From assembly GCA_022702545.1 (NCBI GenBank), contig JAHRBC010000002.1, positions 6,572,001 to 6,636,000 of the forward strand: a stretch of 64,000 nt of DNA, written 5' to 3'. Below are positions 38,789 to 59,401 of the stretch, piece by piece. The notes below the pieces were generated by a model that saw nothing but the letters and a program-made list of their open reading frames with translations, did no database searches and was not told where the DNA came from. The first letter of the stretch is position 1. Each line of letters begins with the position of its first letter. The position numbers were made by a program, and so were the translations under genes. The DNA comes from Phycomyces nitens (lineage: Eukaryota > Mucoromycota > Mucoromycetes > Mucorales > Phycomycetaceae).

Positions 38789-39912
38789 GCTCCGTACGCC
38801 TATTTATCGAAAATGTCATGAAATAAAATGTTAATTCCAAGAAGTAAATTAGCACCTTAGAAAAAGCCTACATTCTATTCTTGAAAGCCTTCAAAAAAAA
38901 AAAACAAAGACAGAGCCAGTTTAAGCTAAAATAAGAGGATAAAAAATGCCATAAAAGTGCTTTGACAATGACTTGAACGAAAACAAATCGCCTTTAGCTA
39001 ATGGGTAACTGGCCAGTCTTATATCCAGAATTGAACTTCATAAAGCATGTTTAGGCTTACCTCAAGCGTTAGGTGTGCTTAAACAAGTACAAGTTGGTAA
39101 GTGCCTATTATTTGAAGCATGGATTTGAAGGAGAGTGGAAGAAAATACCAATGAATATTTGGAGAGTTTAATCTCAAGCATGTCTAGAAAATGTCAAGCT
39201 GTTATTGATGTCAATGGTAATACTACCAAGTATTAAAACTGAATTTTTTGTAATGAATTATAAAAGTAGAATATTCAACAAGTATTTTGTAGTAATCTGA
39301 ACTTTTTAAATAGTCTCTTTAATATACTTTTTTACCAAATATTCAAACTATACATCTTTTCAAAAACATGTAAAACTGAAAATCGAGACGCTACTTTCTT
39401 TCGCTCAATGTGTATCACTAGGTTTATAAAAGTATTAAGATGAGAATATCTCATATTGAATGAATATCTTTCTTTGTTATACAGACTAAACAAGATATAC
39501 TTTATGATGTTAGATAGCTGGATTGATTGCCTATATACATTAAGAATAAGATCAACGTAAACAAATGTATTTTTTCATTTACACCTTATACTTGAGCTTA
39601 CAATCATACAATATTTTCTAGTAACCCTGCATTAACAATGCTTATATACAAGTCTAAAAACCTAATAATCTACAGATAACCCCATTTTAGAAAGAATATA
39701 CCTTGACCATACATTTATCCGTACTTTGACGTGTGAGCTTAACCACTCGCCGCATTATGTACATCTGTCAATAGTCCAACCAAAACATAATCAATATCTA
39801 GTACATATATCAATAAAGTCCCAGAGTGATCCAAACCACTAAACCTCTAGCTGTGGTAGCCATTCGAGACAATCTACAAATATATTTATGGTGCTAATAG
39901 TTTACAAAGACA
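38789..39912. other. Upstream region of gene D
   Basis: No gene. The part from about 39410 to 39912 matches, in the same direction relative to the gene, the upstream flank of gene A (minus strand of about 23900-24400), and partly that of C and F (CGCATTATGTACATCTGTCAATAG, CCTCTAGCTGTGGTAGCC). The remainder is unassigned AT-rich DNA. Confidence 0.6.
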
Positions 39913-40378
39913 CACTTTTTTCACAAATTATTTGTTCACAAAAAAATTAAAATATCACTCATTTTTTAAAAAATGATTTGTTCGTTTTTTGAAAAATAAC
40001 CAATCATTTAAAAGTTTAAAAATCGTTCAACAGCAGAAGAAGAATTCGTTCATTTTTACTCCCCTAATAAAAATGGATTACATTCTGTTTGAAGATGGCA
40101 AAGGAAATCTTATGAATAAAAAAAGAGAAGAAGTCTCTGGTCTTTAGATAGAACTTGATAGTGTTGAATTCCCTCTTGAGAAGATCATAAATTATGGAAG
40201 TTACAAGGATATTAAACTGCTTGCTGCTTTAACATTTCACTCATTCCATTCACTGACAAATAATCGAAAATTTAATTTTTAAATGATTGGTTATTTTTTC
40301 AAAGAGCGAGCGAATCATTTTTTTAAAAATGAGTGATATTTTAATTTTTTTGTGAGCGAATAATTTGTGAAAAAAGTG
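39913..40378. mobile_element. 466-bp foldback/MITE element, copy 1
   Basis: Ends CACTTTTTTCAC and GTGAAAAAAGTG, with imperfect terminal inverted repeats of about 105 bp. Flanked on the right by TA (40379-40380) and on the left by CA (39911-39912), an altered TA. Gene C's upstream region shows the empty site with a single TA. A TA target and long inverted ends suggest mobilisation by a Tc1/mariner-type enzyme. A short frame from 40073 (MDYILFEDGKGN, then a stop after REEVSGL) lies in the middle. Confidence 0.85.
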
Positions 40379-40380
40379 TA

Positions 40381-40639
40381 GTAACTTTGTTTTAGTAATA
40401 AACCCAATGTTTTTTATATCTTGAACACAGGAATTAGAAGTCACCCAAAGGAAGAAGTACAAGAGCAGGGAGCTTGTATATTCCCAAGTTCCACTTACTG
40501 CGGATTGCACATCTGTCCTACAATACACTAAGCCTCCGTTGCTTTTTCTCACGTTCGAATTCATAAAAGTATTAAAACACTCGAAAAGCATTAAAACTTT
40601 TCTTTCCAATATTTCTATATTCCAAATATCCCTTTTTTC
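40381..40639 (+). promoter_or_regulatory. Shared proximal promoter module, gene D copy
   Basis: Matches the C, F and A copies: TTGAACACAGGAATTAG, GAGCTTGTATATTCCCAAG, TACTGCGGATTGCAC, CTGTCCTACAATA and TATTCCAAATATC. The foldback element sits immediately upstream of it. Confidence 0.65.
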
Positions 40640-42490
40640 ATGCTATTATCAGACTTTCCTCGAGAAATTATAGAGCATCTTGCGGACAGTCTTTCTCTCG
40701 AGGACAAACAATCTTGTTATCTGGTTTGCAAGTCATGGAAAGAAGTCTTCCAGGATTCTATACACTCTGACCTAGTGGTATGCGAACGATTATTAGAGGA
40801 CCTTGTAAATCCTTCCCAAGATTATCGACCACTCTACCTAGAAACTCGGTTACTTGTACGACATATGACAATAAATCACAGAGATTCAATAAAAGACAAA
40901 GAGATCTACCTACTGCAGAGAACCTTTCCAAATATAAAGTACCTTCATTTTAGCGCAACCAAAACAGTCCCGGACAGCTTTGGAGTTGATGCCGACTGGA
41001 ATATCTGGAGATCGCTGACAGAACTCTACTTTTCATTCGGCCATAGAACTGTACCCGACCTCGAGAATAAGCTTGTTAAAATTATTGTGTCTTTACCTGT
41101 CTTGAGACGACTGGAGATTTCTAGTAATTGTCCGAACCATACACTATCGCTCTCGTTACACGACTTTGAAACAATCCACTCGCACCTAAAACGCCTTGGA
41201 TATTTGAGATTACGTTCGACTCTATTGACTCTATCCAAAACAGACATTGAACGTATGACAAAAGTATTGCCAGCCACAAATATGGGAAGTGTGGACGTGA
41301 GCGCTGAATATGCAGACCATCGATGGCTATGTTATTTTGCTCACAAATATCCCAATCTACACACACTGAAGCTCCAAATAACAAATAACCTACCCGAAGC
41401 CGATGAAAAAAGGAACGATACGATTAAATTGTTCCAACAAGTGCCTCTGCCATTTCAACACCTTACAAAACTAGAAATTGGATATTTCCAATGGAAAGGA
41501 AGCGATCCTCTACTTTTCTGGGATATAATACATTTCCACAATATGCCGTTAAAGCACGTATCTGTCAATATTTACGCATCATTTGATATTTATAATTCTC
41601 ATAATCCTTGTGATGCTGCCAACAATATCGCAAAGCATTGTTTTCCACGTTTTTTTAAAAACATTGAATCGTTTTATATGAGATGTCTTGGAAATATAGT
41701 CCCAATCGACTTTACGGAGATAAATAGCAACCTTTGCAATCTAGTTAAACTGACTATCGAAACTCCCACGCTTTTTGACATTGATACTCTTCTGTGTGCA
41801 GCGCCTCGCTTGAAATCACTTGAACTCCGAGACGCTGATATCAAAGTTAAAGACGAACTCTACAATTCACAGAGATTTGAGCTCCAGTCATTCATAGTGG
41901 ACTTCACAAAAATTACATCAGATGTTCTCCGGTTTCTGTCCTTCCACTGCAGAAGTTTGAGTGTGTTGGAGCTCAAATTATCACCAGTATACGGCAATTT
42001 TACGACACCTGGGTGCCAGCTTATTGATATGACCTACACCCGCTTTGAGAAATTTTATCTGGAAAGGGTATCATTTATTATACAAGACAACAACAAGTGT
42101 CCAGACAATAGAAATATAACCATTATTGCTCGACCAGTTGAAGATATTACTCCAAAGCAAGACTACGATCCTAATGTCTTGCCGGTTGTCGTTGGTGGCC
42201 CACATGTCAAAGCTTATTATGAAGGGTTTTACACCAATGAGTGTCATTGGACGCAGAAGCTCTCAACAGAACAAAGATCCCGTATCCAGAAATTCGTCTC
42301 AAACTATGAGGAAAACAAAAAAATCACTTTGAAGAAAATCCATGATGCAAAGAAGGGAAAGCCATACGTTGATTGGAACAACAGTTGTGTTTTTGGATAT
42401 ACAAATATAAAGCTTGGTTATTTAGTTGATCTTAATATTAATTACCGTGAAGATCCTAGCACGACGTACCTGGATATTGATTTACTTTAG
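40640..42490 (+). CDS. F-box/leucine-rich-repeat protein, paralogue D
   Basis: Intronless, 616 residues, ATG at 40640. F-box at about 1-45 (LSDFPREIIEHLADSLSLED, SCYLVCKSWKEVF). LRR region with DHRWLCYFAHKYPNLHT, ITSDVLRFLSFHCRSL and GNFTTPGCQLIDMTYTRFEKF, then a tail ending in DPSTTYLDIDLL. It is the partner of F (57191-59041) in a recent duplication. The two proteins differ at 17 positions. Six of these lie in the short stretch LELKLSPVY of D (LHIRWSSVH in F) between the two constant blocks. Predicted SCF substrate receptor; the substrate is unknown. Confidence 0.9.
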   Translation: MLLSDFPREIIEHLADSLSLEDKQSCYLVCKSWKEVFQDSIHSDLVVCERLLEDLVNPSQDYRPLYLETRLLVRHMTINHRDSIKDKEIYLLQRTFPNIKYLHFSATKTVPDSFGVDADWNIWRSLTELYFSFGHRTVPDLENKLVKIIVSLPVLRRLEISSNCPNHTLSLSLHDFETIHSHLKRLGYLRLRSTLLTLSKTDIERMTKVLPATNMGSVDVSAEYADHRWLCYFAHKYPNLHTLKLQITNNLPEADEKRNDTIKLFQQVPLPFQHLTKLEIGYFQWKGSDPLLFWDIIHFHNMPLKHVSVNIYASFDIYNSHNPCDAANNIAKHCFPRFFKNIESFYMRCLGNIVPIDFTEINSNLCNLVKLTIETPTLFDIDTLLCAAPRLKSLELRDADIKVKDELYNSQRFELQSFIVDFTKITSDVLRFLSFHCRSLSVLELKLSPVYGNFTTPGCQLIDMTYTRFEKFYLERVSFIIQDNNKCPDNRNITIIARPVEDITPKQDYDPNVLPVVVGGPHVKAYYEGFYTNECHWTQKLSTEQRSRIQKFVSNYEENKKITLKKIHDAKKGKPYVDWNNSCVFGYTNIKLGYLVDLNINYREDPSTTYLDIDLL

Positions 42491-42849
42491 ATCAGTTGTG
42501 ACTTTACAGGTTTCATTTATCTTTAATGTTCTGTTATTGTTAAATTGAATCTTAGTCGCTATTGTTCTTTTCCTCCCCTTTCCTTGATTATATTATTGTA
42601 TTATCTTAACCAATGAACTATATTCGGTATGTCCTAGAGTCATTCTGTCATTCTTATCCAACTGTTTTCACAGTTGGTTCTTTTAATAAATCAATAAACT
42701 CAATTCAACCCGGAACAATTCCAATAAAGATTAATGTAAAATCCCCTTTGCCTGCTAATTTTTTTACGGAAATTTGTATAACCGATATCAATACGTACGT
42801 TGACTTTTACTCAGACTCCAATGTGGTGGGTTCTCCTGATTTCGAAAAA
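42491..42849. other. 3' flank of gene D
   Basis: Shared with gene F (near identical) and, more diverged, with 55330-55570 downstream of gene E (GAGCTATATTCGGTATG block), so it belongs to the duplicated F-box unit. A 90-codon frame at 42613 is not conserved near E and in F is cut by one extra A. Confidence 0.55.
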
Positions 42850-43900
42850 ATTGAGTTGGCTATTTGTGTGCTATCATTTTGTTGAGCAGAAGGTTTGAGA
42901 TAATATGTTTCAAAAGTTTTGGACCTGAGACTCCAGTTCGCGTGTATATTAACTCTGGGTATTACTACTCCCTCTTATACTGCCTTTGTGCTCGAAGCTG
43001 ACCGAACGGAATGTGATTTGTACTTGGTCGTGTCTACGCCCGCTCTCGCCATTGTTTTCTGAGCCCAAGATGCTACTGTAGAACTGTTTACGGAGTTGGT
43101 TTTGTCAGGGTTATTAATATATGCCAAAAAAAGGGTGTGATCGTCTGGTAGCTGTTGTCGTAATTTTGCGGTTTTCTTCATGAATGTATAGAGTGTGGAG
43201 ACGAGACATAGATCGGTATCCTCCATAAGACCAAGAGTCGTGGATTTTACCTGTGTGTTCTTTGCTTCCATGAAATGTTTGAATCCCGAGATTGGTTTGT
43301 CGTTGTGTAGTTCAAGTTGCACATCTTTGAATAGTAGTTGGCCCACATCAAACCTCGGTCTAGCCATAGTAACAAGACACATCAGGATGATTGTTTTCTG
43401 CTGTAGATCATATAGATTGATGGCTTTATTGGAAGGCAGTTCTTGCTTGATAAACATCATGAGTAGCTTGGTATCCCATGTTTGTAGTGAGTTTTTTTCC
43501 GGAATCAGAATTTCTGTATGTTTCTTGGCCTTAAAAAACTCAACGATTCAGTCCTGATTTGCGATGGCCATTTGATCTGGGTGAAGTATCTTGAATACGG
43601 AAGCAATTGAGGAACGTAAACCATTCAAATGTTGGTATGAGAAATGACTGTTGGACTTGAGAAACATCAATACGTTTTTGACATTGTAATCCTCAGGGGA
43701 TACGGTAGGTTTCTGAGTTGCGCACCGAGTGATCCATTTCTTCCAACCCAAGTTATACACCCTTCGTGTATATTTCCTATGGGCATGAGATAGGAATTCA
43801 ATCGTATCCTCATCTAACTGATCAACTGTCTTCCTCTTGTTGCGGATAAGTTCCATGCGATCATTTTCTACCTGTCTAGTTTGAATATCATCGGTTGACT
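42850..43900 (-). pseudogene. DIRS tyrosine recombinase, with in-frame stops (copy 1)
   Basis: Reads from about 43900 (RKTVDQLDEDTIEFL) through a SAM-like core-binding part (FLKSNSHFSYQHLNGLRSSI) to a catalytic domain. Arg is present in MARPRFDVGQLLF, the H-x-x-R pair in KSHSVRSASSTKA, and the catalytic Tyr region as NWSLRSKTFETYYLKP. In-frame stops are TGA at 43548-43550 and TAA at 42975-42977; the frame continues sensibly across both. Each is one C-to-T or G-to-A change away from Arg or Gln. Confidence 0.82.
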
Positions 43901-44614
43901 CTTGTGTTTCATTTTGAGTATGGTGGGGAACCAGTATTGAGTGGGCCAAAACGGCGTGACAAGTACTGCTTGTTGTAATTTCTGGTATTTGATGTATTGG
44001 ATTGTTTTTAGTATGAATTTCTAGGGTGGGAACAGGTACATCCCTTTTGCAAGCCACGTCTGTTGGAAGGCATCCAACGCTAGTGCCTCGGGGTCCGGTC
44101 AAAGACTCCAGAATTGTGGCAGTTGAGAATTGAGTCTGTCCGCAAATGCGTCTATCATCAGAGGTCCCCATCGTTTGTTGATCTGTTGGAATATTCGTTT
44201 GGGAATTGTGGCTTCGTAAATCACCCGATTTTTCTGGTGTGTCTGTCGGCTTAACCAATCAGCCTTGGTGTTGTCCACGCCTGGTATATGATCGTATTCG
44301 ACGTCCAAGTTGAAGTCGTTGTAAATGTTTTGAATGTTCACGGCTAGGTTTTGTAACAATATCGAGGCAGTTCCTCCCGATTTCGAACTGTACTTCAGGG
44401 CTGTGATATTTTCGGTGAAGATCTTTATTCGGGATCCCTTGCGGTGTCTTGTATGTAGCTTTAGAGCAAAGTATATAGCCATAAGTTCTCGCACATTTAT
44501 CGAGTATTCTCTTTCTGTTGATGACCATGGAACTGTTGCTTGAACCGACATTGAGCTCACCCCCAACCTAGATCTGGGGCGTCTATGTGAATTACTACTT
44601 GAAGAGTCTTGCAT
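43900..44614 (-). pseudogene. DIRS RNase H and downstream linker domain (copy 1)
   Basis: RNase H marks: VIHIDAPDLGWG just upstream in the RT frame, then after a frame change STEREYSINVRELMAI, a FTENITALKY stretch and HIPGVDNTKADWLSR. The following linker (FADRLNSQLPQFWSL, stop, PDPEALALDAFQQTW, then FPP, stop, KFILKTI) is typical for DIRS-like elements. TGA at 44099-44101 and a TAG about 75 bases downstream in the gene sense break it. Confidence 0.8.
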
Positions 44615-45699
44615 GATAATATCTTCTGAATGGGTAGGCTATTCTTCTTGTGCATCTACTCTTTCCACCATTCCAATTCCTTCTTGCTTTCGTGTGATAA
44701 TCTCATAGGTGCATCCCAATTCTGGTGGGGATGTTGTAAACTCGTTGCTAGATCCCTCTGCATATGACGAATATGAAGTAAATCTTCCCCTATCGCCGGG
44801 ATCATAGATGTCATCTTTCCCATCAAACTGGCGTACCATCTGCAGTTGTATTGACGGGGTGTGCTGTTCATGGCTTGTCTCAATCGTCCCATTAATTTGG
44901 TTAGTTTCTTGAGTGGTACAGATATTGTCATGGTCTTTGTATTGAAAACAAACCCCAAAAACTCCTGTTGCTGCAAAGGAGTCATTACACTTTTCTGGTA
45001 GTTTATCAAAAATCCCAGGCGTTCCAAGTGTGATACTACTGTTTGAGTGTGTGTCATGGCTTCTGTCTTTGTTGAGCCCAGAATGCAAATATCGTCGAGG
45101 TAGTATACTAGACGAATGTCCAATTGCCTCATGGGTTCTATGGCAAATCGCATCAACTTGCTGAGCACTCTCGGGCTGACACTCATGCCAAATGCTAGCG
45201 TCTTGTATTGGTATACTTTTCCCTGGTTCTGAAAGGTCAGATACTTTCTGGAGTTTTGGTGTATCGGTGTCACAACATATGCATCCTTGAGGTCCAGTTT
45301 GCAAATGAAATCCTTTGCCTCGATAATGTCTCGCAAGGCTGGGACGCCCTCCATTTTGAAGTGTTGGCATTGAATGAAATTGTTGATCTTTTGGCAATCC
45401 AATATTGGTCTGCGCTTGTTGGTTTCTTGAATTGTGAAAAAGTTTGAAAGAAAATCTGTGCTTTGAGTGGGAGACAGTTCGATTATATCGGCCTGCAAAA
45501 ATTTGTCCACTGCTTCGTTGACAGCTAATTGTTCTGTAGAGTTTAAATGAATTTGACGCAATCGCCATGGTGTTGGTTTCTTTACTAGTGGTATCTGATA
45601 CCCATATTGTATTACGGATAGGGGCCACGGATGATTTGTTGTTAGGTGCCATTGGGAAGCAAACTGTTGAAGTCTCCCCCCCTGGAGCGATCCCATCAA
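44615..45699 (-). pseudogene. DIRS reverse transcriptase (copy 1)
   Basis: 347 residues open from 45699 to a TAG at 44656-44658. Motifs are QADIIELSPTQSTDFLSNFF, RPILDCQKINNFI, FICKLDLKDAYVVTPIHQ, YKTLAFGMSVSPRVLSKLM and VYYLDDICILGSTKTEA (catalytic YLDD), then SVPLKKLTKLMGRL. After the TAG, which probably replaces a Trp codon (WWKE-stop-MHKK), the same frame goes on to the first RNase H motif. A 492-codon frame overlapping on the same strand is a shadow. Confidence 0.88.
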
Positions 45700-46586
45700 T
45701 TGGGATGCTGTAATGTGCGTTGTTTATTGGTTGGTTGAGGAGTTGTGGTTTGGTGGGCTTGTCTGCTGCGGATTGTTTTGATTGTTTGAAGGGCCTGGTC
45801 CAAAAAAAAAGAACCGCGTGATCCACTGTTTCCTCTTCTGTGCCCTCCGAAACCACCTCTGGATCCTCTAAAGCCTCCTCTGGACTGATAATGTCCATTG
45901 CCTCTATAGTTTCCTCTAGACCCACTGGCTTGTTGGACCAATTTTTGGTCAAAGGTTGCTTTGTGGAAAGTACTGAGAAATGCATCGCTGTATGCGTTCT
46001 TGGTTTTTGGATCCTCATCAGAGGTCTCCAAATGTTTGATACTGATTGGGATGTGAAGGGCTTTGTCTGCGTATTCTTTGGCTTCTCGTTCTTGTGCTCT
46101 TGCTGTTTCAAGACCAAAGACTACCAGTCGTTTACTTTGTTCAATGCATCGCCCAACGATTGATTCGGCTTCATCTGGGCTTGTCGTGAAAACGAGTTGT
46201 AACTGTTCAAAGATTTCCATTGCCATTCTGGCTTGGAAACGTGTGTCTTCCGTGATCTTATAGATGGAAGCGACAACCTGAGTTGTTTCTATGGAGTGTC
46301 ATTTGATATAGGGTAGTACGCTCTTGTTGATTTTTTCTGGTGTGGTCCATTCATCCAGGTTGTATCTTTTGGTGTCTCGTTTGAATTTTCTAAAGTTTTC
46401 TTGTTTCTGTTGGCTAGGTGTATTGGCCAAAGTCTCAGAGATCTCCACCGATACGGGTGATCCTGATATTCTTTCTTCTTTTTCATCGTCGATTTGTCCA
46501 ACGACATTTCTGATAATAGTTTCCGTTCCATCTTGCGTGTAGAGTCGTTCATTAGGTGTAGGTGTTTCCATCAATAATTCTTCCAC
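45696..46586 (-). pseudogene. DIRS Gag-like protein with an in-frame TGA (copy 1)
   Basis: ATG at 46586 (MEELLMETPTPNERLY), one TGA at 46299-46301 (LPYIK, stop, HSIETTQ) and then the same frame to 45696. The C-terminal part is an RGG-rich region (RGGFRGSRGGFGGHRRG), as in the nucleic-acid-binding end of many Gag proteins. The last codons overlap the start of the RT frame by 4 bases. Confidence 0.75.
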
Positions 46587-46590
46587 AAAT

Positions 46591-47495
46591 GCGCGGCTTT
46601 TGAAGGTATAAAGGGAAATGAGGGTTTAGGATACAATTTTATATTTTATTACTATTTTTTTTTATCTATAAAAGAAAAATAAAGCGCGGCTCCTGGAGCA
46701 TGTTACCACATTGGAGTCTAAGTCAACAAGGATTGTTGAAGGTACGACCAACAATTGCTACCAAATAAACTTAGCGTCTAAGAGTATCCATAATAAATTC
46801 AGTCCTCAGGACAACACACACATGGTATGGCAAGGCTAAATAAAAAAAATCGTACATTTTTATTGTACCTGGTTTTGACAAAAAAAAATACCTCTTGACT
46901 ATGGATCCACCACCTGGGCTATCACTGCCAATCTTTTAATTCATTTCTTCAATATTGCCAAGCTAATACTAGCTCAAGAGATTGATTATTCTCTTTCTAA
47001 AAAGTTCAGTCTAATTACAGTGGCCTGGATTATTTGAGTATCCATTCCTGATTAAGAAATTTTGATTACAATCATCTGTAATATTGGGGTTGTTGGCGGA
47101 TCTTTGGTTACGGTGCGGTATAAACTAGAGGCTCTTTGAATGACAAAGGGAGTTTCACGAACGGTTGTGGGAGGGGAGTGGGAATGAGGCAACCAGGGGT
47201 AGGCGAAGCGAGAATACAGACTATTACAACTACAGAGGTACTTGAATCGACACAGACAATTCCAAATGACTAGAGCAACCTATGTTCTCTACGACAGACA
47301 CAGACTTAACGGAAAAGAACTCTTTTATTCAAAGTTGTGATAACAAGATACAAATGCAATTTCTTCAATAGTGGTACTGAATTGTGGGATGTGGTCATCC
47401 GCAAATCCCGAGCATGCCTTTCAGCCCAGACCGAACTGTATGGGTGGCCGACCCGGACACCATCACACATCTATTTTTGCTTTTCTTTTTCCTCA
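46591..47495. other. Region between the DIRS element and LINE copy 2
   Basis: About 0.9 kb with no gene I can support. From about 47080 the base composition is more balanced (GTTGGCGGATC to CACCATCACACATC), which hints at another repeat, possibly an LTR, but no second copy is in the window to test this. Confidence 0.4.
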
Positions 47496-47670
47496 TTTTT
47501 TTTTTTTGTATTGTATTGATCTGCCGTCACGCAAAGCGTGCGGCTTTTAGATTGCCATAGACATGGACTTGAGTTAAAAGGCGATGGAAGAAGAGTGAGT
47601 ACAGTGAGTAGAAAAGCTCGAACAAAGAAATGGGTGGGAAGCTAGAGAATTCCAATATGAGAAAAAGGAT

Positions 47671-50600
47671 TCAAACTATAGCAATTATGTGCTTTTCTAT
47701 AGCCCAAGACGCCTTAGCTACTACTCCGGGTAGGAAAGTCTTATCCTCAAAGACAAAGAGCCATTGTGCACTCCAGATTGCTTTAGCAGTGACAACTGCG
47801 AGCAAAACTTGAGAGTTGTCGGATGGTAGGCTGCGAGGGGTGGATCCAAAGACGAGAAGTTTGCGGACACCTTCCAAGGTCCATGATGGCCAGAAACGAG
47901 AGAGGACTACGTTCCACACTTGGTGTTTGACAGGGCACAGGAACAAGAAGTGGTCTCTATCTTCTGTGGCTTCCAAGCAAAGAGGGTGCATGGGGCTGGT
48001 GATTTTCTGGGGCATTATTCGGTGAAGATAATTGCGAGTTGGAACTCTATCCCACAGTATTTTCCACCATACTGTTCGACAGTAGTGTGGAATGACTAGT
48101 TTCCAGAACCGGTGCCAACGGACAGGAGGAAGGGCAGGTGTGGTTGGCCGAAGGTGTCGTCGTAAGGACCCTGTAGTGGCTTTTCCCAGACATTTGTTGT
48201 CAATGCGGACTAGGGAAAGAAGTGAGGAGAGGTTAGGTGGAGGAGGGTTGTCAAGAGGTGGAGGTTGAAGACATTGAAGGAACCAAGAACAGTACACCAT
48301 TCTAGCACTGTCAATGTGTTGGAAGAAGTGCCCAATCCGATTACGAGCACGAGGACGGTCATTCCGAGCCCTGCGTCTGAGACATCCGTCTTCACCCAAC
48401 TCAAAAGCATCAGGGATTAGGATTGACTTGAGGCTCACTGCCACGGCATCAAAAGGAGGAAGGAAAGTCCAAGAGGAGGCCAAAGGAAACTCCGATGCTA
48501 TAGAGGGTTCCACTCGGAAGTCTGGAGGGATGATAGTTGGAAGAATCTGCGAGCATGCACGATGTATAAGCAGTAAGGAGCTAGGACAGCTCGCTGCGCT
48601 ACCTGGATACAGCAGTGCTACTTGAGCAGAATTAGCGCGAAAATGCAAAGGAAGAAGAAATTCGATATAAGGGAGTAAGAAGGAAGAAGATCGAGAAAAA
48701 GAACGAGAGTGTAGAATGGGAAGTATTCATCTTAGCTGGAGAGCACGCTGTTGATGATCAGGATCTAAAAGCCCCAAACCACCAGACTTGCGTGGGAGAC
48801 AAAGCAAAGGCCAGCCAGGACTACCAAACCCTAGTCTGAGGAAGGGCCGGATGTGTGTCCTATAGCAGCAAAGAAGTACAGGGGAGCTGGAGTCACATAC
48901 AGTACATACCATATAGTGCTAAGAAGAATTGAATTTGCTACAATACTTTTCCCTCGCACAGACAAACATCTCTGAGAGAGTATGGCACAGTGCCGTTCTA
49001 ATTTTACAGTAAGAGCCGCACGGAAGGATTCTAACTGAGCCGGATGGGAACTGAGCGGAAAGCCAAGGTAGCGCACGGCAGTGGCAGTGTGGCGATTATG
49101 GCGGGTTGATATATTAGCAGAATCCAAAACAGGACCCCAGTCTGGATGGAATTGTCCTGAGAGAGCAACAGCAATGGTTTTGTTTAGATTAACCTTGGCA
49201 TTTGAAGCAACCCCAAATATATTGAGGATGGACAAAACTGTGGTCATTTCAGAAGGCAAGGAGAGAAATACCAGAAGATCATCAGAATATGCTAGAAGCT
49301 TCAAAGGCGGAGGGGAGAGCGATGGGATGGAGGTGGAGAGACTAGGAGGGACAGTAAATCGAAAACATTGTATAGATGGTAAGGCAATGATTGAGCGCAA
49401 TAGAGGTTCGAATGCAATGTTGAATAAGAGAGGAGAGAGAGGATCATCCTGACGCAAACCACGGCCTTGTTCGAATGAGGAAGATATGTGACCATTGACG
49501 TTTACATGAATCTTGGTTGAAAACAAGAGTACACAGACAGAGTCGATGAATATGACGGGAAGTCCCATTCTAGCCATGACAAGCCGAAGATAGATTGGAT
49601 GAACACGATCATAGGCCTTTTCTTGGTCTAAAAGGAGCCCAACACAGGGATCCTTGGTGATTTGTGCATGAGACATGGCCAGACGTGTCAACAATCCATT
49701 GTCAGCAATAAAACGGTTTGCCATGAAACCTGTTTGAAAAGGTGTGATCAGAGGGCTAATGCAGCGTCGAAGGCGGGACGTTAGCATCTTGGTGAATATC
49801 TTGGCATCACAGTTGATCAGTGAGATCGGACGCCAGTTCGGGAGGGAAGTTAGGTCGCCTGCCTTGGGGAGCAAAACCAGAACAGTTTCCAACCACGAAG
49901 GAGGAAAAACACTGAGAAGAGCATCTTGATACACTTGAATAGCCAGGGTCTGGATGGTAGGGTGAACTAGGACGCGTGCCCACACGGGATACGGAAGGTC
50001 ATCCATACCTGGGCTGGAGTTGCTGGGTGTGCCATTAAGTACGTCCAGAAGTTCATCGAGTGTTACATGTGAGGTCAAGGGAGCGCAGTGCTCAGCAGAG
50101 AGGCTGGCTGAAGGTGGGAGGTTGTCCAAGAGGGAGTGCGCTGCGGGTAGATCTATAGGTTCTTCCGAGTACAAAGTCTGATAAAAAGACTGGGTATGTC
50201 CAAGCAGGTCTGCTGGTGAAGTGTATGTCACACCACTGTATGGATCGACTAAAGTTGATATTGATTTGGCTGCAGATCTTTGTTTGAGAACACGGAAAAA
50301 GTATTTGGTGGGTGTCTCGCCTTCTTCACACCATTTGATGCCAGATCTAGTAGCGAGAGTGGAAGCACGAGAGGTTTGGATAGAGGCTAACTGGGATTCA
50401 ATATCGGCAAGAGAAGGTGATGGTGGGTGGCTCGAGAGCATGTTGCGTTGGCGGTGGAGATATCTTTCCTGAGAACGAAGACGACAATCGAATTTTTCCC
50501 ATATAACAGAGCTAGTTGTTTGAGGGCTTGCTTAAAGCAATCCCAACGAGTTCCAGGGGAAGCATCAGCAGGGAGAAAATCAGCAGCTTTATCCAAAAAA

Positions 50601-51376
50601 TCGGTAAGGGAGCTGTCAAATTCATCATGGGAGAGGTACTGTGTGTTGAACCGCCAAATTCCAGAGCCTGAAGGTCGAGATAGAGGGATAGAGACAGCCA
50701 AAGGACAGTGGTCTGTCCAGGAAGGATTGATGAAGGTAACCTCGGGCGACTCAGTGTTTAAAGAAATTGGGCGGAAAATATAGTCAATGCAAGTACGTGT
50801 GCGGGTGCTATGAAAGGTAGGAATTTGAGCCGAGGTAGGAGAAGTAATAGAATCAATACAATTGCCTTGAAGATATCCTTTCCAGGTAGGTGGAAGAGTT
50901 CGACGCTGGCGGAGATTACAGTTGAAGTCTCCTAGGATAAAAGTAGGTAAAAATGGTATAAGCGAAGGAAGAAGGGTGGCGAGTGAAGAAAAAAATATGC
51001 GTCGATGGGCAGGGACATTTGGAGCATAAAGAACAACGACACCAAAAGGGTCAATGCGTTGATCAGTATGTGTAACCTTTACAACTAGTGCACGATCATC
51101 TGGTGGCACGTACAGTTGTTCAAGGTGGAGAAGGGGATCGAAGGAGATAAGGCCACAGTGCGACGTCCAAAGACTTGCCTGGGCTTGGAAGAGAAGGTGC
51201 ATAGTTGAGTGGTGGGAAGGAAGGAGATGGGTCTCTTGTAGAGCAAGTAAGGAAAATGAAGGGGAAAAGGAACGGAGGTGACGGATAAAGAGACGTTTTG
51301 GGGATTGCGGACTAGTAATGATGGAGAGGAGACCTCGAGCATTCAAGGTTCCTAAGCGGATATATTGTACAGTCAT
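47671..51376 (-). pseudogene. LINE ORF2, copy 2, with at least two frameshifts
   Basis: ATG at 51376, one base after the ORF1 stop. The endonuclease part (LGTLNARGLL, LALQETHLLP, LGDFNCN, TCIDYIF, SWTDHC) runs to about 50480. There an A-run of five, where six would keep frame, shifts the reading. The RT frame (50441-48831) has NWRPISLINCDAKIF, DQEKAYDRVHPIYL, RQDDPLSPLLFNIAF and LLAYSDDLLVFL. A further shift near 48850-48900 leads to the zf-RVT end (PLCLEATEDRDHFLFLC) and the stop at 47671. Confidence 0.87.
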
Positions 51377-51377
51377 C

Positions 51378-52664
51378 TTATAAAGATGACTGACCAGAAT
51401 GGCCAGAAGCAGTATCAGGTTCATGCATAGGTGTGTTGCCATCAAGATCAACAAAAGGTTGATTGCCCTGAGCATGGGCCTGGACTGAGAAATCGAGCAG
51501 GGACTGGCGGAATTCTACATCCGTCATTGTAGGCCGGAATACACCATCCTCAGGAAGGGCAATGCCTCGAGCGGCTAACGAGTACTTGCTGGCAACAGTG
51601 CCGCGACCACTGGGATCATACATTGGTATGTCTACGTTATCACCAGTGGGGACAGGGGGTCGAGTGGATCCAGCCTTGGATCGAGTAGTCATTACCGAAA
51701 CTGATCGGCGGCGAATGGGCTTGGGAGCCAAAGATATAGGTGTAAGAGTTGTGGTGTCCGATGTCGAACACACGGCTGTACTGGAATGTGGGGAAGAGGG
51801 AGCATTGGCTTCTGTTTGAAGAGCACGGAGAGCTTCTGCTTCAGCAATCTCCAACTGGATTTGCTCTTGCTGAAGACGCTCGGCCTCAATGGTGTCGGGA
51901 TGGGCAGGACAGTCTCTGCTGACCATCTCGTGGCCCAAGACACCACAACGCTTACAGCGAGGTGTACGAGAGGGACGCTTCGTACATGCACGCAGGAAGT
52001 GACCTTCCTCACAGCAATACCCACACACAGGTAGAATATCCTTAGAACGCAGCTCCACTGCGCAGGAAATCGATCCTTCCAAATGAAGGCGGCTGGGAAG
52101 GGATTTGGGTGTGTCTAACCCAGATGTGTCCAGAAGGACGGTAGCTTCACCACGGAAAGTTCCACGGTGGGAGACGTAGGCACGCAATTGGACAACCTTT
52201 CCATACGACTGGAAAGCCTCTTCGATCGGTGCAAGAAGGTCAGTTTTGGGATCGCAGGTGCTGATGCGATACATGTGAACCTTCACAATATGACTATTGG
52301 AAGGCAAACTTGGAGAGGCGACGATTCTGGTGCTCTGAAACACCAGGCCGTCGGAGATGGCTTTCACCCGAGTGGCAGGTTCGATGAAAAGGGCCTCTGC
52401 CAAAAGGTCCTTTGAGCGAGTGTAACGCAAGGTCAACGAGGTCATCTGGCCAATATGGTCAGAGAGGACATTATCTACTGCGTTGGCAGGAACGAGTTTG
52501 CCGAGATTGAACAAAACGCTCGATGGATGGATGGTGCTGGCCCAAGCAGCAGATGCTGGATTCACGGAGAGGCTCTGGTCAAAACCAGGTGCAGTAAAGA
52601 TATGAAGAGACTTGTTCTTCGGACGGGACGGTGTGCTCTGTGCACGGATTGCTGGTCGTTGTAC
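51378..52664 (-). CDS. LINE ORF1 protein with CCHC knuckles (copy 2)
   Basis: Still open to the TAA at 51378-51380 and close to copy 1. With the GTG at 52565 it has 395 residues. Zinc knuckles CGYCCEEGHFLRAC and CKRCGVLGHEMVSRDC are kept. As in copy 1, the open frame extends upstream with no ATG in the homologous region, so the true start is unclear and the start given here is the approximate limit of the open frame. Confidence 0.72.
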   Translation of the reverse strand, partial: VQRPAIRAQSTPSRPKNKSLHIFTAPGFDQSLSVNPASAAWASTIHPSSVLFNLGKLVPANAVDNVLSDHIGQMTSLTLRYTRSKDLLAEALFIEPATRVKAISDGLVFQSTRIVASPSLPSNSHIVKVHMYRISTCDPKTDLLAPIEEAFQSYGKVVQLRAYVSHRGTFRGEATVLLDTSGLDTPKSLPSRLHLEGSISCAVELRSKDILPVCGYCCEEGHFLRACTKRPSRTPRCKRCGVLGHEMVSRDCPAHPDTIEAERLQQEQIQLEIAEAEALRALQTEANAPSSPHSSTAVCSTSDTTTLTPISLAPKPIRRRSVSVMTTRSKAGSTRPPVPTGDNVDIPMYDPSGRGTVASKYSLAARGIALPEDGVFRPTMTDVEFRQSLLDFSVQAHAQGNQPFVDLDGNTPMHEPDTASGHSGQSSL

Positions 52665-52789
52665 CTACCATGGGTTGACAGTACTGCCCTGTGAGTTCCA
52701 TCCCTCAGGGGTACTCATACTAGTTCTTATTATGGGGATTTGTGTCGGTAGAATATTTATCCGCACAAAACAATTATTTGACCTTTAAA

Positions 52790-52965
52790 TACTATTGCCC
52801 AAGGTCAGGATACCGTTCCCGTGCGGATTTTATCTGTCCTACAATACTCTAAGCCTCCCCTGCTTTCTCACATTCGAAATTCATAAAACTGTACTCAAAT
52901 ATTTGGAAAGTATTAAAACTTTTCTTTCCAGTATACATATATATATTCCAATTATCCATTTTACT
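52790..52965 (+). promoter_or_regulatory. Proximal promoter module of gene E, trimmed by the LINE
   Basis: Keeps TGCGGATTTTATCTGTCCTACAATA, CTAAGCCTCC, a CACATTCGAAATTCAT block and TATTCCAATTATCC before the ATG, all matched in C, D and F. Homology fades at about 52790, just inside the LINE border. So the distal half of the module present in C, D and F is missing here. Confidence 0.6.
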
Positions 52966-54801
52966 ATGCCATTATCCAAACTTCCTCGAGAGATTATAGA
53001 GCAGTTGATAGGACTTCTTTCTTCCGAGGACAGAATATCTTGCTATTTAGCTTGCAAGCCATGGAGAGAAATCTTCACGGATTCCGTACACTCTAAACAA
53101 GTGGTGTACCATAACTTATTATTGGACCTTATTAATCCTCCCAAAGATAATAAACCGCCTTGCCTAAGAACTCGATTACTCGTACGAAATTTGGAATTGT
53201 GTCATTATACGCGAGCAACAGACGAAGGCCTCTACGTACTACAGAAAACCTTTCCGAATATAAATCATCTTCACTTTGGCCCATATTCCCTAAACTCAGA
53301 CAACTTTGGAGTTACTGCTGACTGGAATATATGGAGATCATTGAGAGAACTCCACATTGAATTTGACCAGAGACCTCTACCTGACGTCGAAAATAAGCTT
53401 GTTAAAACGATCCTGTGTTTACCACACTTGAGACGACTGGAGATCTTTAATACAGATTGGAGAGACGTAAAAGTGTCATTCTCATTAGAAGACTTTGAAA
53501 CCATTCACTCGCATTCAAAGCACATTGAGCATTTTGGATTAGACTCAAATCTATTGAGGCTATCCGAAACAGACCTTGAGCGCATGACAAATGTATCGCC
53601 AGCCACAAACATGAAAAGCATGCATATAACTTCTGGAAATACAGACCATCGATGGCTATGCTATTTTGCACGCAAGTACCCGAATCTAGACGCACTGAAT
53701 TTATCTACATCAAACATTCTACCAAACGTCAATGGAAGACGGAGCGATACTATATCATTGTTCCAACAAGTGCCTCTACCGTTTCAACACCTAACAAAAT
53801 TAAATCTTCGATACTGGGATTTGGTTGGAGAGGATCATCTACTTTTCTGGGATATACTCCATTTTCACAATGTCCCGTTGAAGCATTTCCTTGTTCACAT
53901 TAATGTACCAGACAACGACACCTCTGCTATTGATTCTCGTGATATTCCCAATCATATCGCAGAAGTTTGTCTCCCAGAATTCTCAAAGACCATTGAGACA
54001 TTTAGCCTGAAATGTCCAAATGAATATGAAATCCCAATCGAATTTTCAGAGCTAGATGACAGCCTATGCAATATAGTTGATATATATGTGGATGCTTGGG
54101 CGTGTCTTGACATAGATGTCCTTTTATGCGCAGCGCCTCGCTTAAGAAAAATTGAACTCATCAATAGTTATATCACAGTTAGAGAAGACCTCTACAATTC
54201 AAACCGATTTGGGCTCGAGACGTTTAAATTAGGGAAATCAGATATTACATCAAATGTTCTCCGGTTTCTGTCCTTCCACTGCAGAGATTTGGATGAGCTT
54301 GGTTTCGAAGATTCAACAGTAACCGGCAACCTTACGACACCTGGATGCCAGTTTATTGATATGTCCTACACCCGCTTAAGTAAACTGTGTATAGAATATG
54401 GAAGCTTTGTTATCGAAGACAAAAAGGCGCAGGATGAACGTACAGATACAGTTCTTATTATTCGACCAATTGACGATATTTCTCCAAAACAAGACTTTGA
54501 TCCTAATGCTCTGCCAGCTGTTGTTAGTGGTCAACCTATCAAAGTTCATCATGAATGGTTTCAAACTACTCCTCATAATCATATGCTGAATATATCATCA
54601 GAAGAACGTTTATGCGACCAAGGATTAGGCTCATACAATGACGAAACCGAAATAATCACGGCAAATACTCTCCTTGATCCAAATACAAGAAAAGAAAAGA
54701 TCGGTATTATGAACAGCAGCTGTTTGAACGAGTACACAATGATTAAACTTGGCCATGTATCTAATTTTGAGATTTTTTATAGTGAAGAAGATGTATTTTA
54801 A
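52966..54801 (+). CDS. F-box/leucine-rich-repeat protein, paralogue E
   Basis: Intronless, 611 residues from the ATG at 52966. The frame is open for 57 more codons upstream, but that part is promoter sequence shared with the other copies and has no ATG, so it is not used. F-box at about 1-45 (LSKLPREIIEQLIGLLSSED, SCYLACKPWREIF; note LACKPW for LVCKSW). LRR blocks DHRWLCYFARKYPNLDA, ITSNVLRFLSFHCRDL and GNLTTPGCQFIDMSYTRL are present. It shares its 3' flank with C. Confidence 0.88.
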   Translation: MPLSKLPREIIEQLIGLLSSEDRISCYLACKPWREIFTDSVHSKQVVYHNLLLDLINPPKDNKPPCLRTRLLVRNLELCHYTRATDEGLYVLQKTFPNINHLHFGPYSLNSDNFGVTADWNIWRSLRELHIEFDQRPLPDVENKLVKTILCLPHLRRLEIFNTDWRDVKVSFSLEDFETIHSHSKHIEHFGLDSNLLRLSETDLERMTNVSPATNMKSMHITSGNTDHRWLCYFARKYPNLDALNLSTSNILPNVNGRRSDTISLFQQVPLPFQHLTKLNLRYWDLVGEDHLLFWDILHFHNVPLKHFLVHINVPDNDTSAIDSRDIPNHIAEVCLPEFSKTIETFSLKCPNEYEIPIEFSELDDSLCNIVDIYVDAWACLDIDVLLCAAPRLRKIELINSYITVREDLYNSNRFGLETFKLGKSDITSNVLRFLSFHCRDLDELGFEDSTVTGNLTTPGCQFIDMSYTRLSKLCIEYGSFVIEDKKAQDERTDTVLIIRPIDDISPKQDFDPNALPAVVSGQPIKVHHEWFQTTPHNHMLNISSEERLCDQGLGSYNDETEIITANTLLDPNTRKEKIGIMNSSCLNEYTMIKLGHVSNFEIFYSEEDVF

Positions 54802-55689
54802 GCTAAAAACCAAAAATAAAAGAAACGTTTTAAAACCCTTGAATCTTTCTGAAGCAATGTCATTTTAATGAATTAATAAAACAAAAAACACTGTATTGTT
54901 GCCTAAACTCTTTTTATTTTTAAAAAGAAAGAAAGAAAGAAAAACTTGTCGCCACTTTTACATTGCCTCATAAATTCAGTGTCTTTATTTGTAAATGACA
55001 TATATGCTCTGGAAGATTGATAAGAAAAAAAGTCCAAAATCTCCAAATAAAAGCAGATAAACCGATTGAAATTGTCAAGGTCCATCTTTATTATAGCATT
55101 CTAATTTGAATGGTTATTCAACTAGCCTCCTCAAATCTCCTATCTCAATTCAGTTGAACATTTTTTTTAATTATCTTTGCAAATGAATCCAGCAAATTAG
55201 GTACATATTATATAGTTATTCAATGTTGGATATATTCTGTAAAGAGAACAGATATGTGTCTCTATGGAACATTTGAAAAGTGTAATACATGGTGAAATGG
55301 AGTACCTTATTATCAAGTTAATTCATATCGACTGTTATTTGATAGGTTTCATTTTACTATAATTTTCTGTTGCTGTTAAATTGCTCCCGAGTCACTATCA
55401 CTGTTTTCCTTCCCTTTCTTTGACTATATTATTGTTCAACTTTATTGTATTCATATAACCAACGAGCTATATTCGGTATGTTTTTTAGAGTCACTTTATC
55501 ATTCTTGTCCAACTGCTTCCACAATTGGCTTTTCTTTTTATAACGATAAACTCAATTCAATCCGGAACAATATCATGTACCAAGAATACCAAGCAGCTAT
55601 AAATGTCAAGTAGACCAACAAATTGTTATTATTATTATTACTCGATATCATTATATGCTCTAAAAGAACATAATCTTTTATATAAAAGC
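54802..55689. other. Downstream flank of gene E
   Basis: The first 120 bp match the 3' flank of gene C (AAAAATAAAAGAAACGTTT). The stretch 55330-55570 matches the 3' flank of D and F. A short (TTA)n run is at about 55626. No gene seen. Confidence 0.55.
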
Positions 55690-56440
55690 TTGAACTTGTA
55701 GGGTACTTGCGTTATATTTATCAATTTATTTCAATGTATGAAGTAGTGGATATTTATTTTAGTTGTACAGTCTACAAAATACTTTATTCCTAACATTCAG
55801 TGTATGCTACCCGTACCCAAAGGTTTCTATCTTGGAGCGAATCAATCCGTTTTTAGACAAGTATTCAATCGAAATATCTATTAACAAAAGTTAATTAACA
55901 ATGTAAATGCATTGAAAAGGATGCTTTCTTATAAAAGCATACTATTCAATATTGCACACTTACCTGTCAAAGTAGTTTAACATTTCAGTAAAGTAAATCA
56001 TCAAAACTTTACGAGAACATCTATATATTTTACATGGTTTAGAGTCCTACGATTAATATCTATTGTGTATCAAATAATTTGCAAGCACACCTTTCTTAAC
56101 TTGTACCTCTTCTCAACTCATCTCCTTTAAACTATTTAGCAAAATAATCCTTTATCTCTTGTTTCAAAAACTCGCTCCAATTATAATATCGACAATGATT
56201 AAATCCAAGCCTGATAATCTACAAATAAACACATTTTGTAAAGAATATAACTTGGTCATACATTTATCCGTACTTTGACATGTAAGCTTAACCACTCTCC
56301 GCATTATTTCCGTCAATCAACAGTCGGATTAACACCTAAAGTCAATATCCAAGACTAATATCAATAAAGTCCCAGAGTGATCCAAGCCACTAAACCTCTA
56401 GCTGTGGTAGCCATTCGAGACAATTGACAAATATATTTAT
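55690..56440. repeat. Segment repeated at 30160-30900
   Basis: Near-identical partner of the block upstream of gene C. Here it leads into the upstream region of gene F, just before the foldback element. Confidence 0.8.
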
Positions 56441-56463
56441 GGTGCTAATAGTTTACAAAGATA

Positions 56464-56929
56464 CACTTTTTTCACAAATTATTTGCTCACAAAAAAATTA
56501 AAATATCACTCATTTTTTAAAAAATGATTTGTTCGTTTTTTGAAAAATAACCAATCATTTAAAAGTTTAAAAATCGTTCAACAGCAGAAGAAAAATTCGT
56601 TCATTTTTACTCCCCTAATAAAAATGGATTACATTCTGTTTGAAGATGGCAAAGGAAATCTTATGAATAAAAAAAGAGAAGAAGTCTCTGGTCTCTAGAT
56701 AGAACTTGATAGTGTTGAATTCCCTCTTGAGAAGATCATAAATTATGGAAGTTACAAGGATATTAAACTGCTTGCTGCTTTAACATTTCACTCATTCCAT
56801 TCACTGACAAATAATCGAAAATTTAATTTTTAAATGATTGGTTATTTTTTCAAAGAGCGAGCGAATCATTTTTTTAAAAATGAGTGATATTTTAATTTTT
56901 TTGTGAGCGAATAATTTGTGAAAAAAGTG
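56464..56929. mobile_element. 466-bp foldback/MITE element, copy 2
   Basis: Same length and ends as copy 1 at 39913. Both flanking TA dinucleotides are intact here (56462-56463 and 56930-56931), showing the TA target duplication. It differs from copy 1 at about three positions, so both come from one insertion followed by segmental duplication. Confidence 0.87.
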
Positions 56930-56931
56930 TA

Positions 56932-57190
56932 GTAACTTTGTTTTAGTAATAAACCCAATGTTTTTTATATCTTGAACACAGGAATTAGAAGTCACCCAAA
57001 GGAAGAAGTACAAGAGCAGGGAGCTTGTATATTCCCAAGTTCCACTTACTGCGGATTGTACATCTGTCTTACAATACACTAAGCCTCCGTTGCTTTTTCT
57101 CACGTTCGAATTCATAAAAGTATTAAAACACTCGAAAAGCATTAAAACTTTTCTTTCCAATATTTCTATATTCCAAATATCCCTTTTTTC
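56932..57190 (+). promoter_or_regulatory. Shared proximal promoter module, gene F copy
   Basis: Differs from the D copy at only two bases (GATTGTAC for GATTGCAC, GTCTTAC for GTCCTAC), the second inside the otherwise constant CTGTCCTACAATA box. Confidence 0.65.
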
Positions 57191-59041
57191 ATGCTATTAT
57201 CAGACTTTCCTCGAGAAATTATAGAACATCTTGCGGACAGTCTTTCTCTCGAGGACAAAAGATCTTGTTATCTGGTTTCCAAGTCATGGAAAGAAGTCTT
57301 CCAGGATTATATACACTCTGACCTAGTGGTATGCGAACGATTATTAGCGGACCTTGTAAATCCTTCCCAAGATTATCGACCACTCTACCTAGAAACTCGG
57401 TTACTTGTACGACATATGACAATAAATCACAGAGATTCAATAAAAGACAAAGAGATCTACCTACTGCAGAGAACCTTTCCAAATATAAAGTACCTTCATT
57501 TTAGCGCAACCAAAACAGTCCCGGACAGCTTTGGAGTTGATGCCGACTGGAATATCTGGAGATCGCTGACAGAACTCTACTTTTCATTCGGCCATAGAAC
57601 TGTACCCGACCTCGAGAATAAGCTTGTTAAAATTATTGTGTCTTTACCTGTCTTGAGACGACTGGAGATTTCTAGTAATTGTCTGAACCATACACTATCG
57701 CTCTCGTTACACGACTTTGAAACAATCCACTCGCACCTAAAACGCCTTGGATATTTGAGATTACGTTCGAATCTATTGACTCTATCCAAAACAGACATTG
57801 AACGTATGACAAAAGTATTGCCAGCCACAAATATGGGAAGTGTGGACGTGAGCGCTGAATATGCAGACCATCGATGGCTATGTTATTTTGCTCACAAATA
57901 TCCCAATCTACACACACTGAAGCTCCAAATAACAAATAACCTACCCGAAGCCGATGAAAAAAGGAACGATACGATTAAATTGTTCCAACAAGTGCCTCTG
58001 CCATTTCAACACCTTACAAAACTAGAAATTGGATATTTCCAATGGGAAGGAAGCGATCCTCTACTTTTCTGGGATATAATACATTTCCACAATATGCCGT
58101 TAAAGCACGTATCTGTCAATATTTCCGCATCATTTGTTATTTATAATTCTCATAATCCTTGTGATGCTGCCAACAATATCGCAAAGCATTGTTTTCCACA
58201 TTTTTTTAAAAACATTGAATCGTTTTATATGAGATGTCTTGTAAATATAGTCCCAATCGACTTTACGGAGATAAATAGCAACCTTTGCAATCTAGTTAAA
58301 CTGACTATCGAAACTCCCACGCTTTTTGACATTGATACTCTTCTGTGTGCAGCGCCTCGCTTGAAATCACTTGAACTCCGAGACGCTGATATCAAAGTTA
58401 AAGACGAACTCTACAATTCACAGAGATTTGAGCTCCAGTCATTCATAGTGGACTTCACAAAAATTACATCAGATGTTCTCCGGTTTCTGTCCTTCCACTG
58501 CAGAAGTTTGAGTGTGTTGCATATCAGATGGTCATCAGTACACGGCAATTTTACGACACCTGGGTGCCAGCTTATTGATATGACCTACACCCGCTTTGAG
58601 AAATTTTATCTGGAAAGGGTATCATTTATTATACAAGACAACAACAAGTGTCCAGACAATAGAAATATAACCATTATTGCTCGACCAGTTGAAGATATTA
58701 CTCCAAAGCAAGACTACGATCCTAATGTCTTGCCGGTTGTCGTTGGTGGCCCACATGTCAAAGCTTATTATGAAGGGTTTTACACCAATGAGTGTCATTG
58801 GACGCAGAAGCTCTCAACAGAACAAAGATCCCGTATCCAGAAATTCGTCTCAAACTATGAGGAAAACAAAAAAATCACTTTGAAGAAAATCCATGATGCA
58901 AAGAAGGGAAAGCCATACGTTGATTGGAACAACAGTTGTGTTTTTGGATATACAAATATAAAGCTTGGTTATTTAGTTGATCTTAATATTAATTACCGTG
59001 AAGATCCTAGCACGACGTACCTGGATATTGATTTACTTTAG
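57191..59041 (+). CDS. F-box/leucine-rich-repeat protein, paralogue F
   Basis: Intronless, 616 residues, ATG at 57191. Same length as D and 17 residues different: in the F-box part Q to R, C to S (LVSKSW for LVCKSW), S to Y and E to A; further on P to L, T to N, K to E, Y to S, D to V, R to H and G to V; and six changes in LHIRWSSVH. From the GNFTTPGCQ block to the C-terminus the two are identical. The Cys-to-Ser change is in the family-conserved SCxLVCKSW segment of the F-box and might touch Skp1 binding. Predicted SCF substrate receptor. Confidence 0.9.
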   Translation: MLLSDFPREIIEHLADSLSLEDKRSCYLVSKSWKEVFQDYIHSDLVVCERLLADLVNPSQDYRPLYLETRLLVRHMTINHRDSIKDKEIYLLQRTFPNIKYLHFSATKTVPDSFGVDADWNIWRSLTELYFSFGHRTVPDLENKLVKIIVSLPVLRRLEISSNCLNHTLSLSLHDFETIHSHLKRLGYLRLRSNLLTLSKTDIERMTKVLPATNMGSVDVSAEYADHRWLCYFAHKYPNLHTLKLQITNNLPEADEKRNDTIKLFQQVPLPFQHLTKLEIGYFQWEGSDPLLFWDIIHFHNMPLKHVSVNISASFVIYNSHNPCDAANNIAKHCFPHFFKNIESFYMRCLVNIVPIDFTEINSNLCNLVKLTIETPTLFDIDTLLCAAPRLKSLELRDADIKVKDELYNSQRFELQSFIVDFTKITSDVLRFLSFHCRSLSVLHIRWSSVHGNFTTPGCQLIDMTYTRFEKFYLERVSFIIQDNNKCPDNRNITIIARPVEDITPKQDYDPNVLPVVVGGPHVKAYYEGFYTNECHWTQKLSTEQRSRIQKFVSNYEENKKITLKKIHDAKKGKPYVDWNNSCVFGYTNIKLGYLVDLNINYREDPSTTYLDIDLL

Positions 59042-59401
59042 ATCAGTTGTGACTTTACAGGTTTCATTTATCTTTAATGTTCTGTTATTGTTAAATTGAA
59101 TCTTAGTCGCTATTGTTCTTTTCCTCCCCTTTCCTTGATTATATTATTGTATTATCTTAACCAATGAACTATATTCGGTATGTCCTAGAGTCATTCTGTC
59201 ATTCTTATCCAACTGTTTTCACAGTTGGTTCTTTTAATAAATCAATAAACTCAATTCAACCCGGAACAATTCCAATAAAGATTAATGTAAAATCCCCTTT
59301 GCCTGCTAATTTTTTTACGGAAATTTGTATAACCGATATCAATACGTACGTTGACTTTTACTCAGACTCCAATGTGGTGGGTTCTCCTGATTTCGAAAAA
59401 A
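59042..59401. other. 3' flank of gene F
   Basis: Same as the 3' flank of D, with one extra A at about 59400. Confidence 0.6.

Follow-up and report, generated by a model that had tools for sequence, protein, structure and literature searches.

Nematodes and plants possess rapidly evolving F-box adapters, the targets of which are, to our knowledge, largely unknown. A 2006 study by Thomas reportedly found adaptive evolution in the F-box (and MATH-BTB) adapters that serve ubiquitin ligases in these organisms. Here we describe an F-box family of the mucoralean fungus Phycomyces nitens, starting from a 64,000-nucleotide stretch of contig JAHRBC010000002.1 (assembly GCA_022702545.1), which corresponds to C4:6572001-6636000 of a 49-Mb, 11-contig genome and is called the window below. 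The window holds two closely similar genes, D and F, with a predicted F-box and predicted leucine-rich repeats (LRR). Coordinates are those of the window unless prefixed with C4.

40640-42490, forward strand: gene D, intact single-exon F-box/LRR open reading frame (ORF) of 616 amino acids
57191-59041, forward strand: gene F, intact duplicate of D, 616 amino acids

Our results argue that these F-box/LRR receptors, of the type found in SCF (Skp1-cullin-F-box) ubiquitin ligases, probably diversify by positive selection together with interlocus gene conversion. The family resembles the nematode and plant adapters in being a large, clustered F-box family with purifying selection on the F-box and a fast substrate domain. 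It differs from them in its single-exon F-box/LRR genes, in fast sites located at predicted LRR strand ends and in a short interlocus conversion tract. The F-box families of Caenorhabditis have a purified F-box, fast C-terminal domains and a suggested immune role against foreign proteins (PMC8665587), and C. remanei, an instance of large species-specific families, has 688 F-box genes in 42 clusters (PMC5041008). The term 'gene conversion' does not occur in the main text of the former survey.

Inter-locus exchange combined with positive selection at a protein-interaction surface has been described for the WD-repeat family het-d/het-e of Podospora (Paoletti et al. 2007, PMC1805685). The Phycomyces family may be similar: it shows inter-locus exchange (one clear tract and a mosaic gene A), and selection would act on an interaction surface that is predicted from a moderate structural model and from ranges chosen post hoc. 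It is different in having F-box/LRR proteins instead of WD repeats, and allorecognition is established for het-d/het-e, whereas the present family is known from its sequence alone. No WD-repeat family was among the Pfam matches of D or of its paralogue B, and the comparison is therefore limited to how the two systems may work. A large F-box family within a single fungal genome has also been described in Choanephora cucurbitarum, where 31 members (PF12937) occur among orphan genes; this likeness is by description only, and selection and conversion are unmentioned for that family in the available part of the account (PMC5238444). Among the open-licence literature matches listed, no title or opening of an abstract described a positively selected fungal F-box/LRR family; a description elsewhere may nevertheless exist.

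Size and clustering of the family

The D protein matched at least 72 places in the genome (71 of 385 candidates scored), 65 of which lack an internal stop, a table count that frameshifts would escape. For F-box-like matches in general the total is at least 150: scores were obtained for 150 of 391 candidates, and every one of these passed the cut-off. DNA matches to D are clustered, with 37 of the 41 inside one 1.5-Mb region (C4 5.8-7.3 Mb); more distant family members are found on C1, C5, C7 and C10. A search of viral contigs produced 65 pattern matches, of which none was confirmed as a relative.

Codon analyses were based on the 34 ORFs of at least 560 amino acids among 48 distinct D-matching ORFs; the 14 shorter ones, some of them fragments of broken genes, were dropped. 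The nearest relatives of D and F are L003 to L007, with DNA identities of 92-86% and protein identities of 84-70%. L003 (C4:6808114-6809928) is 92% identical to D in DNA and 84% in protein, and L004 (C4:7174207-7176009) is 89% and 78% identical, respectively. Three sets were analysed: the D clade (D, F and L003-L007; 7 sequences, 601 codons), the C clade (C, L023, L021, L011, L015, L016 and L018; 7 sequences, 605 codons) and a third set of 6 sequences (L009, L010, L019, L025, L022 and L014). Gene C lies in the window.

31191-33017, forward strand: paralogue C, 608 amino acids, in the second clade tested

Probable positive selection at a subset of sites

Site models over the paralogues had been proposed as a check in an earlier reading of the DNA that used the sequence only, and within this genome they favour a positively selected class. 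The models are our own implementation, not PAML, and our simulations calibrate the M1a/M2a comparison in the D clade only. In the D clade the ratio of replacing to silent rates (omega) was 1.18 under M0, and M2a was preferred over M1a with twice the log-likelihood difference (2dlnL) at 138, omega2 being 8.0 at 10% of sites; the comparison of M8 with M8a also gave 138. Nearly the same was found in the C clade (M0 omega 1.13; 2dlnL 132 for M2a against M1a and 133.5 for M8 against M8a), and the positively selected class had an omega of 4-8 across the two clades. The third set gave an M0 omega of 0.80 and a 2dlnL of 89. Removal of F from the D clade left a 2dlnL of 125, removal of both D and F an omega of 1.06 and a 2dlnL of 85, and an altered tree gave 138.5.

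A replacement excess of this kind, and the differences between D and F, could arise from gene conversion alone, if they consisted mainly of old paralogous variation that is being shuffled, with no current positive selection. Conversion does occur in the family, as described below. Null simulations on the D-clade tree reached a 2dlnL of at most 5.7 without recombination (n=12) and at most 15.4 with eight tip conversions each (n=16), far from the observed 138. Furthermore, replacements cannot outrun silent changes through conversion unless the donors already differ in that way. Recombination can mislead site models, and the strongest check is therefore a test of columns across clades, which involves no fit to the clade tested. 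For the 36 columns with P>0.9 in the C clade, the ratio of replacing to silent differences per site (pN/pS) among L003-L006 was 2.04, against 0.71 elsewhere; looser cut-offs of 0.8 and 0.5 gave 1.71 and 1.56. Sites with omega above 1 thus coincide in the two clades, columns picked in one being fast in the other too, and we regard shuffling without current selection as an unlikely account of the family.

The fast sites are not spread evenly over the protein. Regional omega was 1.80 in the D clade and 1.28 in the C clade at the predicted strand ends (positions -1 to +3, 75 residues), and 0.37 and 0.59, respectively, over residues 1-43, which include the F-box. Within residues 75-480, fast sites (P>0.9) of the D clade made up 15/105 strand-end positions against 8/301 others (p=5e-5); for the C clade the figures were 17/105 and 8/301 (p=6e-6). 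These p-values are optimistic, because the strands and both ranges were picked by hand with the site lists already known. The counts used positions -2 to +4 at the ends of 15 strands, which were taken from the listed secondary structure of the model.

Silent divergence in the D clade (pS, 0.11-0.14) is comparable with the divergence of the 5′ flank over the 250 bp next to the gene (0.03-0.135), and silent rates are therefore not depressed there. The 5′ flanks of the C clade vary from 0.05 to 0.33, and the 200 bp past the stop gave no meaningful alignment for most pairs.

A gene-conversion tract in gene F

Eight of the 21 differences between D and F are packed into 22 bp (coding nt 1330-1351), and at all eight F carries the base of L006.

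58520-58541, forward strand: core of the tract in F, coding nt 1330-1351, with the eight differences
41969-41990, forward strand: the same 22 bp as they stand in D, largely in the ancestral state
58459-58584, forward strand: longest stretch of identity between F and L006, coding nt 1269-1394, 126 bp, the outer bound of the tract

L006 (C4:6725494-6727287) lies about 94 kb from the end of F (C4:6631041). Its overall identity to D is 86%, yet it is identical to F over nt 1269-1394. L003 and L004 each carry the D base at 6 of the 8 tract sites, so that F is the likely recipient; nt 1341 and 1345 are probable changes on the D side. A run as long as that shared by F and L006 was reached in 2 of 20,000 permutations of polymorphic sites, and it was the most extreme among 19 pairs in a screen of 2,000 permutations. 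Across the 49-Mb genome, F and L006 are the sole carriers of a 32-mer from the tract, even when up to three mismatches are allowed. The tract is one gene-conversion event, probably from an L006-like donor into F. The earlier suggestion of "directed recombination" is thus borne out as to recombination; nothing shows directedness.

Other traces of exchange were seen in gene A, the first two thirds of which are near L011 and C and the last third nearer L003 and D, with a switch point somewhere within coding nt 1050-1350. Candidates such as L004 with L006/L007 are weaker (p=0.003, uncorrected for 19 pairs). Several of the single sites that differ between D and F carry states present in other paralogues.

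21834-23642, reverse strand: paralogue A, 602 amino acids, mosaic

Genes D and F and the block that carries them

D and F are recent duplicates within a block of about 5.7 kb.

39912-45619, no strand assigned: duplicated block, D copy, about 5.7 kb
56463-62171, no strand assigned: duplicated block, F copy, about 5.7 kb

The match extends on the left of the D block through a more diverged fringe to 39658 (39658-39911, 33/254 differences). Our recount of the two coding sequences agreed exactly with the sequence-only reading: 21 differences in 1,851 bp, 1 silent and 20 replacing, with 17 residues altered. The sole silent difference is GAG/GAA at codon 12, and codon 24 has a two-base change. With nine transitions and 12 transversions, a C-to-T hypermutation signature is not suggested.

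The shortage of silent changes had been taken as a sign of selection. This stands for the 21 raw differences (probability of at most one silent change 0.009-0.033), and is lost when the conversion tract is counted as one event, leaving 12-14 events (0.06-0.21; event count and transition bias varied). It was accordingly dropped as a stand-alone proof. Fast sites defined from L003-L007 only include 6 of the 17 changed residues, among 55/601 fast sites (p=0.0025). With the tract excluded they include 5 of 11 (residues 40, 165, 286, 337 and 351), among 54/593 (p=0.0016). Conversion from paralogues would favour variable sites too, and this overlap therefore supports a family-wide process and does not separate point selection from conversion.

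The gene was also claimed to have diverged more than the "dead" DNA beside it, with the raised divergence expected to be confined to the ORF. The figure given for the neighbouring 3′ sequence (three substitutions and one indel in about 2.15 kb) is exact for 42491-44639 (2,149 bp), and 44640-45200 has 1/561 substitutions; against this near 3′ side the claim holds. It fails against the 5′ flank (39912-40639), with 5/728 substitutions (0.69%), and against the outer 3′ patch (45201-45619 compared with 61753-62171), which has 12/419 (2.9%) beside an otherwise near-identical 3′ flank. The general statement that the gene evolves faster than its neighbours was therefore dropped. In the outer patch L044 agrees with D, not with F, at 11 of 12 sites; for L043 the number is 9 of 12. 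Most of the change thus lies on the F side, and rates along the block are uneven for causes other than selection acting on the gene.

The contrast accordingly depends on what is compared. Coding sequence against the whole flank of 39912-45619 gave 21/1851 against 21/3857 (p=0.02), and 13/1829 with the tract removed (p=0.46). When the outer patch was left out, a choice made post hoc with the data in view, the values were p=0.00014 and, with the tract also removed, p=0.023. Outside the tract, replacing changes (12/1450) exceeded silent plus flanking changes without the patch (10/3837, p=0.007) but not with it (22/4256, p=0.23). One tract thus gives more than a third of the differences between D and F, the silent deficit that remains is not significant and the flank contrast fails on the 5′ side and in the outer 3′ patch; the pair alone is a weak basis for inferring selection and does not carry our conclusion.

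Repeated blocks are hard to assemble and the copies are known here from the assembly alone, so that D or F might contain an error of assembly or sequencing. We consider this highly improbable, since both ORFs are intact, their outer flanks differ and all eight differences of the cluster agree with a single paralogue that lies at another place on the contig.

The neighbouring retroelement had been labelled dead and a DIRS copy. Neither label is established: Pfam RVT_1 is present, and no DIRS-type domain was found in five further open pieces, a limited scan that falls short of a thorough test. The genome has two further long copies of the element, about 5% diverged.

42799-45619, reverse strand: retroelement part of the D block, with a reverse transcriptase ORF at 44656-45696 (Pfam RVT_1)

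An inverted pair of retroelements (33501-38775 and 47496-52779; 5.3 kb, 77% identical) flanks gene D on both sides. Pfam found a reverse transcriptase in both copies, and in the first one also a zinc knuckle and zf-RVT.

Domains and predicted structure

40646-40756, forward strand: F-box of D, residues 3-39, Pfam F-box E 8e-4
40862-42082, forward strand: predicted LRR-like repeats of strand and helix in D, roughly residues 75-481, from AlphaFold2 secondary structure
27364-29169, forward strand: paralogue B, 601 amino acids
52966-54801, forward strand: paralogue E, 611 amino acids

At E<=0.01 the Pfam family F-box-like matched six of the six window paralogues and F-box five of six; B scored above the F-box cut-off. 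Pfam LRR matches of D were below cut-off. AlphaFold2 modelling from the six window proteins gave regular strand-helix repeats with a mean predicted local distance difference test (pLDDT) score of 62, the F-box and C-terminal tail being poorly predicted. Among the 50 Foldseek matches listed, the first six were MAX2, TIR1 (three entries), COI1 and 4i6j, which we take to be FBXL3; TLR8 entries followed and FBXL17 ranked 11. TIR1, COI1, MAX2/D3, FBXL17 and FBXL3 are conserved receptors with known substrates. The Phycomyces proteins are predicted to resemble TIR1, COI1, MAX2/D3, FBXL17 and 4i6j in F-box/LRR architecture, but at low template-modelling (TM) scores only (about 0.2-0.4, normalized to query length). 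Skp1-family matches were found at two places in the genome.

Weight of the evidence

Several results weigh against positive selection on SCF-type receptors, as do the hand-chosen strand ranges. Six of the 16 recombinant null simulations exceeded 5.99, showing that gene conversion inflates the false positives of site models. Whole-gene omega by the Nei-Gojobori method (NG86) was 0.64-1.16 for D-clade pairs except D/F, mostly below 1, and over 561 pairs its median was 0.62 with 1.8% above 1. For C and L023 the 5′ flanks diverge by 0.21-0.31 against a pS of 0.10. In the D/F pair, besides the loss of significance when events are counted, the coding sequence without the tract differs at 13/1829 positions (0.71%), equal to the 5′ flank rate; four of the 17 changed residues (24, 30, 40 and 53) are in or beside the F-box; and of the 11 residues outside the tract only 165 and 312 fall on C-clade-defined sites at P>0.5, with no clear enrichment. 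The F-box of D scored 19.7 bits, just under the Pfam cut-off of 20.5, and the low TM-scores and moderate pLDDT count likewise.

Whole-gene omega near or under 1, together with the short and broken ORFs, would also be expected if constraint were relaxed and redundant duplicates drifted neutrally at an omega of about 1. Neutrality is exceeded, however, by the site class with omega 4-8 and by the cross-clade pN/pS of 2, the F-box is conserved, most matched places lack an internal stop and D-clade silent rates are not depressed relative to the near 5′ flank; relaxed constraint is thus very unlikely. The family-wide tests give good support to what the sequence-only reading concluded, namely that a substrate-receptor family is subject to diversifying selection, recombination or both.

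Proposed mechanism and implications

D and F are recent duplicates, and the family of single-exon F-box/LRR genes to which they belong is very large and clustered. The F-box, conserved and N-terminal, probably attaches these proteins to Skp1 within an SCF ubiquitin ligase. Targets are probably bound by the predicted LRR solenoid, at the residues that close each strand on its C-terminal side. SCF membership, ligand binding and a selective agent are what we infer for these predicted receptors. The fast sites would lie on the rim of the modelled LRR domain, where strand-end residues are probably under recurrent positive selection family-wide. New rim sequences probably come from single replacements and from short conversion tracts between loci, such as the one apparently copied from an L006-like paralogue into F.

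These observations suggest, without proving it, a family in continual adaptation to targets that themselves change. We speculate, tentatively, that it may be a germline-diversified repertoire for intracellular recognition that sends foreign or selfish proteins to degradation. If so, candidate targets would be viral, transposon, bacterial or non-self proteins, and a shared pool of paralogues would lend short rim segments to new genes, a logic like that of het-d/het-e but tied to ubiquitin ligases. A clustered family with mapped fast sites and a well-delimited conversion tract shared by two identified genes offers concrete receptors and residues for finding what drives such families.

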